The position numbers and the translations under genes are program-made. A stretch of 64,000 bases of DNA, taken from contig CAIOGO010000004.1 of assembly GCA_903857865.1 (NCBI GenBank), positions 1 to 64,000 of the forward strand. Reading direction: 5' to 3'. Origin of the DNA: an uncultured bacterium (GTDB taxonomy: Bacteria > Bipolaricaulota > Bipolaricaulia > UBA7950 > UBA9294). The notes under the pieces are model-generated. The model searched no databases, was not told where the DNA came from, and worked only from the letters and a program-made list of their open reading frames with translations. Numbering within the stretch: position 1 is the stretch's first letter; each line of letters opens with the position of its first letter. Shown piece by piece: positions 1-2,148 of this stretch.

Positions 1-345
1 AGTCCACGAGTAGCTCGCCATCCCCGACGAGCCACCCGTCAACGCCAGTTGCTGGCCCACGCAGACCGGTCCGCCGTTCGTTGCGGTTGGGGTCGGCAGC
101 GCATTGACAACAACTGTCGTGGTTGCGGGCGCACTGCTTGTGCAGCCGCTCGAGTTTGTGACCGTGAGCGAGTACACGCCGGCCATCGACAAGGTCGCGC
201 TCGAAGACACGGTCGGGTTCTGCGCAGTTGACGTGAATCCATTGGGGCCAGTCCACGAGTAGCTCGCCATCCCCGACGGGCCACCCGTCAACGCCAGTTG
301 CTGGCCCACGCAGACCGGTCCGCCGTTCGTTGCGGTTGGGGTCGG
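1..345. repeat. 249-bp tandem coding repeat (83-residue Ig-like unit)
   Basis: Bases 1-96 and 250-345 are identical except position 30 (a) versus 279 (g), giving an exact 249-base (83-codon) period in frame with the surface protein. The repeat encodes an Ig-like module starting PTPTATNGGPVCVGQQ. Such identity between neighbouring modules points to recent duplication or gene conversion; further copies probably lie beyond the left edge. Confidence 0.9.
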
Positions 346-1371
346 CCGCGTGCCGACGGTCACGTTCTGTGAGCAGGAGGCCGAACAGCCGCCTGCGTTG
401 GCGACCGTCACGCCCAACTGAACGGTGGGTCCGTTCCCGGATGTCCACGTGATCTGGCGGGTACCTTGCCCGGCGGTGATCGTGCCTCCCACAATGGACC
501 AGACGTACGCGGCACCCGGGCCGGCATCCGCCACCGAAGCGAGGTTTCCGGTGCTTGCCGCGCACACGCCGGTTGGCGACGAGATGGCGCATGTCGGTAT
601 TCCGTAGACCGTCACGTAGCCGGCCTTCACCTCGGTGTCTGTCGTCCCCAGAGCATCCGTCACGGTCAGCCGGACAGTGTATGAACCCGCCTGCGCGTAC
701 GTGTAGCTGGGGTTCCTGGCTGTGCTGTCTACGGTTCCGTTCCCATCGAAGTCCCATGCGTACGCGTACGCCACCGTGTCCTTTCCGCCGGTCGTGAGGT
801 CAGTGAACTGCACGGTGAGGGGAGCGCATCCGCTCGTCGGCGTCCCCGTGAAATTGGCGTTAAGAGAGGCGTAGACAATGACGTTCGGGTAGTTGCCGAT
901 GCACTTCGACGGGGCGTTATAGGGGACACAGTCTCCAGTAGTACAGCCGGCATTGGCTGACCACTGCACGTAGATGTTCCGGATCTCCACGCTCTGGTTG
1001 CACGGCCAGGTGATCGTTCCCACCAGGAAATCACTCGCGCCACCATTCCAGTCCGTCGTGACCGTGCTTGCGAGATTCTGTTGCGTGAGAAGGTCGTTGA
1101 CCCAGACGTCGACGACCAGCATCACGCAGTAATACGTTCGGTTGCCTTCGAGTCTTACGTACAGATCGGCTGTCTGGTTGCCTCCGACGCACGAGGCGAT
1201 ACTGCCAAGGTATACGCTGACTACTCTGACATCCTTCGCATCGCACCCGCTGATGCACCGCGGGTAGGTCTGTGCTGCGGCTTCGGGCGCGGGGAGTGCG
1301 AAGAAGAGCGACACGAGCAGGACTCCCACGAGGAGAGGTCCCCAACAACACTTGCGTACGATCGACACCAT
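1..1371 (-). CDS. Large secreted PKD / Ig-like repeat surface protein, partial (3' end beyond window)
   Basis: The frame is open from the ATG at 1371 to the window edge (457 codons, no stop). The N-terminus has a signal peptide: basic MVSIVRK, a hydrophobic core around residues 10-26 and an AEA-type cleavage site near residue 33. A Cys-containing beta-rich region follows, then a PKD domain (about residues 170-255, with the diagnostic WDFDGNGT and YTYAQAGSYTV segments), then Ig-like/SprB-type repeats beginning PTPTATNGGPVC. It is probably a cell-surface adhesin or matrix protein. A strong AGGAGGT lies 9 bases before this ATG. An in-frame ATG at 1515 with AGGAGG at 1521-1526 would add 48 residues before the signal peptide. 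The gene sits behind a riboswitch at 1531-1610, so its expression is probably set by a cyclic dinucleotide. True length is unknown. Confidence 0.85.
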   Translation of the reverse strand, partial: MVSIVRKCCWGPLLVGVLLVSLFFALPAPEAAAQTYPRCISGCDAKDVRVVSVYLGSIASCVGGNQTADLYVRLEGNRTYYCVMLVVDVWVNDLLTQQNLASTVTTDWNGGASDFLVGTITWPCNQSVEIRNIYVQWSANAGCTTGDCVPYNAPSKCIGNYPNVIVYASLNANFTGTPTSGCAPLTVQFTDLTTGGKDTVAYAYAWDFDGNGTVDSTARNPSYTYAQAGSYTVRLTVTDALGTTDTEVKAGYVTVYGIPTCAISSPTGVCAASTGNLASVADAGPGAAYVWSIVGGTITAGQGTRQITWTSGNGPTVQLGVTVANAGGCSASCSQNVTVGTRPTPTATNGGPVCVGQQLALTGGPSGMASYSWTGPNGFTSTAQNPTVSSSATLSMAGVYSLTVTNSSGCTSSAPATTTVVVNALPTPTATNGGPVCVGQQLALTGGSSGMASYSWT

Positions 1372-1519
1372 GCGACCCCCACCTCCTTGGGAAGCAGCCA
1401 TCGCCAGAGGCGAACGGGAAGACTCAGAGAGACAAGCCGGTGAGATCACGGTTCGGAAAAGAGAACGCCACACCCCTCGCTCTTCACCACCGGGTCGCCT
1501 CATGGCGATAGCCATGTCT

Positions 1520-1534
1520 GCCTCCTATTGAGGC
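1520..1534 (-). promoter_or_regulatory. Ribosome-binding-site sequestering hairpin (expression platform of riboswitch 1)
   Basis: On the minus strand GCCTC (1530-1534) can pair with GAGGC (1520-1524), hiding the AGGAGG used by the ATG at 1515. The same GCC is the 3' strand of the aptamer closing stem, so the two pairings exclude each other. Ligand binding would therefore free the site and switch translation on. This is structural inference from base pairing only. Confidence 0.5.
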
Positions 1535-1610
1535 TGGCAGCCCAGCGTCCTACATGAGGTCTGTGGCTTTGCGTCCTGCCCTCGCGGGCAGTTTGCCCTT
1601 TTCAGCCGGT
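1531..1610 (-). promoter_or_regulatory. Cyclic di-GMP-I (GEMM-I) riboswitch 1, G20 type
   Basis: The minus strand shows the GEMM-I core: AAAAGGGCAAAC, then the hairpin CTGCCC-GCGA-GGGCAG with a GNRA tetraloop, then GACGCAAAGCC, a second arm, and a closing stem GGCTG (1603-1607) with CAGCC (1532-1536). With Vibrio Vc2 numbering, position 20 is G (complement of 1597) and C46-A47 are present, as expected for c-di-GMP recognition. The aptamer begins 10 bases after the stop of the upstream RHH/MshEN gene, with no promoter seen in between, so it is read as part of the same transcript and controls the PKD surface protein. Confidence 0.88.
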
Positions 1611-1619
1611 CTTTCTGCG

Positions 1620-1949
1620 CTACGCAGACTCCGACTTGCGTCCGCGGGTCTGAATCAACAGTGCGCGCTCGAGGGCCTCGGGGGGAACCAACTGCTCTTC
1701 CAGCAGTATATCGCCGAGAAGCTTCTGCGTGAACTTCGTCTGCTGCAGCTCCAGTCCCCTAGCCAGGTCGGCGTGCGTCATCACTCCAAGGTCGACGAGG
1801 ATCTCGCCGAGGCGCTTCTCGCACTCGAAGTGCTGCTCGAGGATCGAGAGGATGACGCTGCTTCGGCTCTTGCGTTCCCTCTTCCCCTTGGCATCCACCT
1901 GTTTGATGAGGTATGCATCCTCATCGCTGTAGTAGATTGTCGTCTGCAT
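1620..1949 (-). CDS. Ribbon-helix-helix + MshEN-like domain protein under riboswitch control
   Basis: 109 residues. Residues 1-43 look like a ribbon-helix-helix (CopG/Arc type) DNA-binding fold: a short beta strand TTIYY followed by two helices with SRSSVILSILEQHF. Residues about 46-103 form two MshEN-like repeats: the first, RLGEILVDLGVMTHADLA..LELQ, fits the c-di-GMP-binding pattern RLGxxLxxxGxxxxxxLxxxLxxQ; the second (LLGDILLEEQLV..ALERALLIQ) is degenerate. MshEN is known as the N-terminal c-di-GMP sensor of type II secretion/pilus ATPases; here it stands alone with a DNA-binding head. The inferred role is a cyclic-dinucleotide-responsive regulator. The gene has its own riboswitch and terminator upstream and is followed directly by a second riboswitch. 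Confidence 0.8.
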   Translation of the reverse strand: MQTTIYYSDEDAYLIKQVDAKGKRERKSRSSVILSILEQHFECEKRLGEILVDLGVMTHADLARGLELQQTKFTQKLLGDILLEEQLVPPEALERALLIQTRGRKSESA

Positions 1950-1977
1950 CTGTCTCTCCTCTCATCGCCGCGCCGGC

Positions 1978-2016
1978 AAAACGAAAAGCCGGGTTCCAGT
2001 CTCCTGGTAACCCGGC
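1978..2016 (-). terminator. Rho-independent terminator, expression platform of riboswitch 2
   Basis: On the minus strand GCCGGGTT (2009-2016) pairs with AACCCGGC (1988-1995) around an inner CCAG/CTGG stem, followed by the T-rich run TTTTCGTTTT (1978-1987). The 5' arm of this hairpin contains the GGGTTA of the riboswitch closing stem, so aptamer formation and termination compete. Ligand binding should relieve termination (ON switch). Confidence 0.85.
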
Positions 2017-2105
2017 CACCTCACGACTCCCACACAGACCTGGGTCATGAGGCCCGTAGCTTTGCGCCCCCACCTCACGGTAGGTTTGCTCTTTTCAGGC
2101 TATCG
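2005..2105 (-). promoter_or_regulatory. GEMM-I riboswitch 2, A20 variant (possible cGAMP sensor)
   Basis: On the minus strand: TAGCCTGAAAAGAGCAAACC, hairpin CCTACC-GTGA-GGTGGG (GNRA loop), GCGCAAAGCTACGGG, a second arm, and GGCCGGGTTACC at the 3' end. The closing stem can be TAGCC with GGTTA. Aligned to Vibrio Vc2, G19 and G21 are kept but position 20 is A (complement of 2090), while C46, A47 and C92 are retained. A20 is the substitution associated with cyclic AMP-GMP recognition in Geobacter GEMM-Ib riboswitches. It starts about 8 bases after the predicted transcription start and overlaps a terminator. Confidence 0.88.
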
Positions 2106-2119
2106 AACTGCGTGGTTGC

Positions 2120-2148
2120 ACTATATCCGCCGTATATCCTGATGTCAA
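2120..2148 (-). promoter_or_regulatory. Sigma-70-type promoter of the riboswitch operon
   Basis: The minus strand has TTGACA (2148-2143), a 17-base spacer and TATAGT (2125-2120). Transcription would start near 2113, just before the A20 riboswitch. This is the best-scoring promoter by eye in the window and is divergent from mutS. Confidence 0.85.

Follow-up and report, generated by a model that had tools for sequence, protein, structure and literature searches.

A probable c-di-GMP-gated surface-protein operon of Candidatus Bipolaricaulota with a small regulator-like gene between two GEMM-I riboswitches

The locus described here is probably a c-di-GMP-gated surface-protein operon of Candidatus Bipolaricaulota, a bacterial group without cultured members. 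It was found in a 64,000-nucleotide stretch of DNA (hereafter the window), where it lies wholly on the minus strand and is divergent from mutS. In transcript order it consists of a promoter, a first aptamer, a terminator, a gene for a 109-aa protein, 13 nt, a second aptamer, a Shine-Dalgarno (SD) sequence with its ATG, and the gene for a PKD-repeat protein. The elements, their order and conservation, the overlapping alternative structures and the predicted protein domains were read from the sequence and from comparison with relatives. Their positions in the window are as follows.

2120..2148, minus strand: sigma-70-type promoter TTGACA-17-TATAGT (TTGACA 2148-2143; TATAGT 2125-2120), 11/12 match
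2003..2100, minus strand: aptamer 1, GEMM-I / c-di-GMP-I (RF01051), with A at position 20 (Vc2 numbering)
1978..2017, minus strand: intrinsic terminator overlapping the 3' strand of aptamer 1 P3; transcriptional platform, predicted ON
1956..1961, minus strand: SD sequence GAGGAG of the middle gene, 6 nt before ATG 1949
1620..1949, minus strand: 109-aa gene, predicted ribbon-helix-helix (RHH; about 1-44) and predicted MshEN-type c-di-GMP-binding module (about 44-103)
1705..1733, minus strand: candidate internal promoter TTCACG-17-TATACT within the middle gene, 9/12
1532..1606, minus strand: aptamer 2, c-di-GMP-I-GGC type (RF03167), G20
1513..1537, minus strand: SD-sequestering hairpin GCCUC-AAUAG-GAGGC and start (SD AGGAGG 1526-1521, ATG 1515); translational platform, predicted ON
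1..1515, minus strand: secreted PKD-repeat protein, truncated by the contig start (window base 1 is contig base 1)

An earlier note on this DNA had proposed two GEMM-I aptamers in series, and both were recovered with RF01051 at scores above the gathering cut-off of 35 bits (56.5 bits for aptamer 1 and 59.9 bits for aptamer 2). Aptamer 2 also reached 64.1 bits against RF03167, c-di-GMP-I-GGC (gathering cut-off 59), and aptamer 1 folded alone into the canonical GEMM-I form with P1, P2 and P3. The promoter ahead of the first aptamer, the 109-residue gene between the aptamers (1949-1620), the terminator platform of the first aptamer (hairpin 2017-1978) and the ribosome-binding-site hairpin of the second before a large surface protein (SD 1526-1521), all part of the same proposal, were likewise found, and both platforms are kept in relatives. 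The second aptamer does follow closely after the stop codon, but by the Rfam bounds the gap is 13 nt and not the 10 bases claimed. The locus is not a tandem (contiguous) riboswitch, in which both switches occupy one intergenic region before the same gene, since the 109-aa gene lies between them. Seven aptamers of GEMM-I type occur in the 2.24-Mb genome, and at that density the number of chance sandwiches, as a rough estimate, is about 2e-5 per genome. A true back-to-back tandem GEMM pair was seen elsewhere in the genome (G000:C9:40055-40236; L008:6056-6238), and the pocket of its second aptamer has an unusual base, C20.

The layout recurs among relatives. Matches to RF01051 were found in 32/33 genomes of the GTDB family, and both flanking aptamers in 16 of the 17 full-length family loci (the window included), the one orthologue without aptamers being L021. 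In those 16 loci the upstream aptamer is 44-71 nt from the gene, and the downstream aptamer begins 0-52 nt past the stop codon in 15 and 243 nt past it in L022. Two loci (L016, L020) have two aptamers upstream and thus three in series. The middle protein is present in 74/100 genomes of the phylum. Outside the family, tight sandwiches were found at L121, L122, L130, L134 and L142 (L121 and L122 are near-identical and from one genus), several loci have the upstream switch only, and about half have none. This recurrence inside and outside the family makes it likely, as judged by sequence comparison, that selection maintains the layout in the family and that its origin in the phylum is old, although it is not obligatory. 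About 60 loci of the RHH-MshEN family occur in genome records, nearly all from Bipolaricaulota. Full-length members under other labels come from a few Atribacteria, Neomarinimicrobiota and Caldisericota MAGs; they are close copies, and these MAGs may be misnamed. For matches from other phyla, coverage is largely confined to the MshEN part.

The two aptamers are joined to different expression platforms. In the terminator stem, GGCCGGGUU pairs with AACCCGGCU, a U-rich tail follows, and the hairpin has a folding energy of about -24 kcal/mol. When the downstream sequence of the window is included in the fold, the terminator takes the place of P3 and P1 of aptamer 1. A generic terminator scan of the locus found none, because this hairpin falls outside the rules that the scan applies to stem, loop and T-tract; the terminator was located by pairing the 3' strand of the aptamer with downstream sequence. 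A 5' arm made of the P3 3' strand and a 3' arm before a T-rich tract were seen in all family loci with an upstream aptamer except L022, and the arms co-vary in relatives: at two positions of the stem a T-A pair is replaced by C-G, and changes from G-C to G-U occur as well. At the second switch, the 3' end of aptamer 2 takes part in the SD hairpin, and the computed probability that the SD is free in the window is 0.27 in the full fold versus 0.62 with the aptamer arm removed. In relatives with sequence at this place, the SD stands 4-13 nt before the start codon after aptamer 2 and is partly paired with the 3' end of the aptamer, the sequestration being weak in several of them (P(SD free) 0.45-0.75 in L016-L020). 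As the terminator shares the P3 strand of aptamer 1, ligand should prevent termination, and based on this overlap and that between the SD and the 3' end of aptamer 2 both aptamers are predicted to be ON switches.

The -10 hexamer of TTGACA-17-TATAGT is 19 nt ahead of aptamer 1, and a TTGACA-16/17-TAT promoter matching at 11 or 12 of 12 positions was present in 17/17 sandwiched loci with upstream sequence, at a distance of 18-28 nt from -10 to aptamer. Between the -10 hexamer and aptamer 1 a conserved block was also observed (2101-2119, minus strand), which is found in L017-L020 as well and reads TTAGTTCATGGT in genus g12. It could possibly be an operator or an element of the 5' end. The g12 block was considered as a regulon operator motif and set aside, as it occurs once per genome and so shows no regulon.

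Whether a single RNA covers the whole locus is less certain. The earlier note had assumed one transcript, which is in keeping with a 13-nt gap that fits neither a terminator nor a whole promoter, but a promoter-like site (9/12) lies inside the middle gene. This site, TTCACG-17-TATACT (1733-1705), is kept in three relatives (G069, G077, G074) through a rare ATA codon; ATA makes up 4/38 of the Ile codons in five orthologues versus 0/72 in mutS, rsmH and ftsI of the window. Moreover, in three of the four genomes of genus g12 a site TTTACA-16-TAT[TC]AT lies in the 43-nt gap between stop codon and aptamer, 12 nt before aptamer 2, and L022 has the promoter-like TTCACA-16-TATAAT. Beyond these, no site of similar quality was seen in relatives. 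A separate promoter between the aptamers, named beforehand in the note as evidence against its reading, is thus partly indicated in relatives (by the g12 gap site) and is possible in the window. With a candidate inside the gene and stronger gap sites in g12, the single transcript stays a predicted one.

These same sites would be expected if two independent single-gene riboswitches happened to lie side by side, aptamer 1 controlling only the small gene, with aptamer 2 and the surface gene transcribed mainly from a promoter of their own, located either within the middle gene or in the gap. This explanation is somewhat unlikely. Between the start codon and aptamer 2, no site scoring more than 8/12 was found in L023-L028 and L036; several stop-aptamer gaps are only 0-23 nt; no terminator lies between the genes; and a translational second platform is what would be expected on a read-through RNA. 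It is also conceivable that RNA started at the first promoter reads through while a second start inside the operon is active as well.

The product of the middle gene bears on the function of the operon. No Pfam family matched the 109-aa protein significantly; weak cross-matches to DUF4388 and FumaraseC_C were discarded, and the family was resolved by NCBIfam and a fold search. NCBIfam NF053729 (cyclic di-GMP-binding, MshE-related) was above its cut-off of 38 bits in all three proteins tested, at 44.3 bits in the window and 74.2 and 60.2 bits in two relatives. A profile of 26 orthologues compared with solved structures retrieved PilF (8e-20), PilB and MshE. In the AlphaFold model (pLDDT 87), residues 44-103 match the c-di-GMP-bound structures of PilF-GSPIIB and MshE with Z about 10; this MshEN part gave Z 10.3 against both 9gl5 (rmsd 1.4 over 57 residues) and 5htl (rmsd 2.1 over 59 residues). 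When compared with the MshEN motif RLGxx..G..L..L..Q, of which two copies are expected, motif I (R46-Q69) fits the published form except for Met at one hydrophobic site (PMC5013675). Motif II (77-100) is imperfect, with Leu77 for Arg and Gln86 for Gly. The motif-ending glutamines Q69 and Q100 are invariant in the 26 sequences. PilF GSPII-B, whose binding is at 6 nM, likewise begins motif II with Leu, and PilF GSPII-C has a residue other than Arg at the same place (PMC11731258). The MshEN-type module of the middle protein is likely to bind c-di-GMP.

Residues 1-45 of the model resemble Arc, CopG, CdbA, AmrZ and NikR (Z 3.4-4.3), and in the monomer model this part consists of two helices with no assigned strand. 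Pfam RHH_1 matched weakly in 7/26 members (best E 0.021). The RHH assignment, weak by Pfam, is based mainly on the predicted fold (Z about 4). Matches in the fold library outside the RHH and MshEN groups were set aside as common helical arrangements. The modelled fold and sequence together suggest that the middle protein is probably a c-di-GMP-responsive DNA-binding regulator, and the likely c-di-GMP- and DNA-binding nature of the product was absent from the earlier note. Because the MshEN/GSPII module is mostly found on the ATPases PilB, MshE and PilF, the protein could instead be an adaptor that binds c-di-GMP and serves, for instance, an ATPase of a secretion system or pilus, and not a DNA-binding regulator. 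This is clearly unlikely given the resemblance of the N-terminal half to the Arc, CopG, CdbA, AmrZ and NikR folds, the conserved segments QTTIYY and RERKSRS there, and the lack of a fused ATPase.

The ligand of aptamer 1 needs separate consideration. Its position 20 is A, read from AGAGCAAAC, and aptamer 2 has G20 in its pocket, read from AGGGCAAAC. Aptamer 1 thus lacks the G20 of c-di-GMP selectivity, which bears on ligand preference and not on the fold. In Desulfobacca acetoxidans, position 20 tells c-AMP-GMP from c-di-GMP aptamers, A20 marking c-AMP-GMP variants of the same family (PMC9481103). On this basis the locus could be a mixed-signal AND gate in this species, with aptamer 1 sensing c-AMP-GMP and aptamer 2 c-di-GMP. 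However, all relatives have G at this position of aptamer 1, so that among the aptamers read around these genes A20 is unique to this one genome, where it could also be a sequencing error or drift. The genome has seven GGDEF domains with an intact c-di-GMP signature, and the signature Asp is kept in 7/7. In Hypr cGAMP cyclases this Asp is replaced by Ser. A source of cGAMP in the genome (91% complete) was looked for and dismissed, as no Hypr signature was found among the seven well-formed GGDEF domains and no SMODS cyclase was found. The mixed gate is consequently very improbable, and A20 is more likely to reflect a private base change, reduced affinity or an error in the sequence than an input dedicated to cGAMP. 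It may reduce the affinity of aptamer 1 for c-di-GMP.

The gene after aptamer 2 encodes a protein with PKD_4 (4e-15), PKD and PKD_6 domains in Pfam, and the downstream proteins of most relatives, where readable, are large secreted proteins with PKD/DUF11/Ig-like repeats. The window gene may start at 1515 or at 1371: ATG 1515 is in frame with a second SD/ATG 144 nt away at 1371, and the latter enters the signal peptide directly, while in genus g12 it is the SD/ATG beside aptamer 2 that is directly followed by the signal peptide. L015 has what looks like a leader reading frame, the end of which apparently overlaps the surface-gene start as ATGA. In L071 (6747-13496), downstream of the third aptamer and a small secreted protein, an ORF of 2250 aa was seen that contains 14 DUF7507 repeats and is still open where the contig ends.

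From these parts we infer ligand binding, the ON direction, co-transcription and targets of the middle protein in the following manner. RNA polymerase would start at TTGACA/TATAGT and reach aptamer 1. Without ligand, the terminator would capture the P3 3' strand and the RNA would end at about 1978; with ligand, aptamer 1 would keep P3, the terminator would be blocked and transcription would proceed. The 109-aa protein, probably a c-di-GMP-responsive regulator, would then be made, and the RNA would run on into aptamer 2, whose 3' end would otherwise pair with the SD region. Ligand on aptamer 2 would free the SD and allow the large secreted repeat protein to be translated, and the signal may have a further effect through the middle protein. 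With a transcriptional ON switch followed by a translational one, the surface protein would need the signal at least twice. As the layout is shared throughout the group, a single signal probably passes two or three sensors before one surface structure is made. The fuller version, a phylum-specific operon in which the second messenger is read three times (by an RNA switch acting on transcription, by a one-component regulator of a new kind, RHH fused to MshEN, encoded between the switches, and by another RNA switch acting on translation), is possible and is put forward only tentatively. If it is true, the three serial readings would amount to a coherent feed-forward loop, or a time filter, built into the expression of a giant surface protein.

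In the literature searched, which included few subscription papers, neither GEMM switches in Bipolaricaulota, nor a conserved unit in which two GEMM switches flank a gene, nor an RHH-MshEN fusion was found described, and the conserved operon of riboswitch, c-di-GMP-sensor regulator, riboswitch and surface protein likewise appears to be undescribed there. Such a conserved cassette would be a case of RNA and protein sensors of a single signal connected in series, would give an uncharacterised RHH-MshEN family a testable ligand and role, and would tie giant surface proteins to c-di-GMP in a phylum that has no genetics.

Each component has precedents: GEMM switches in tandem, a regulator under GEMM control, and c-di-GMP-binding RHH proteins are all known. 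In V. cholerae, a GEMM-I switch precedes a regulator gene (TfoY) and another precedes an adhesin gene (GbpA), at separate loci. Compared with these riboswitches (Vc2-tfoY and Vc1-gbpA, cited via PMC6366702), the present locus places regulator and surface protein in series, and its regulator has a predicted c-di-GMP module. Tandem c-di-GMP-I riboswitches (347 doublets and 12 triplets; e.g., Bc3-5 of B. thuringiensis; PMC9481103, PMC4759541) share with the locus the aptamer class and, as predicted here, several copies per RNA and a steeper response; they adjoin before one gene, whereas here a gene lies between and the platforms differ (terminator, then SD). In the Desulfobacca acetoxidans cluster, several GEMM and AdoCbl riboswitches occur within 7 kb with ORFs between them (PMC9481103). 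It resembles the locus in its ORF-separated switches and in one GEMM aptamer with an A-type pocket, but it is known from a single genome, has AdoCbl/GEMM logic gates, and no conserved small regulator was described there between a transcriptional and a translational GEMM switch (PMC9481103). On the protein side, CdbA of Myxococcus xanthus binds c-di-GMP through the RHH fold itself (PMC7156744), whereas the middle protein has a separate MshEN module fused to the putative RHH. This module resembles the MshEN/GSPII domains of MshE, PilB and PilF in its two candidate 24-residue motifs and its modelled four-helix bundle (PMC5013675, PMC11731258) and matches the c-di-GMP-bound structures; it differs in a spacer of 7 residues (as in PilF GSPII-C) instead of 5, in having no C-terminal subdomain, in its partly degenerate second motif and in its fusion to a putative RHH.
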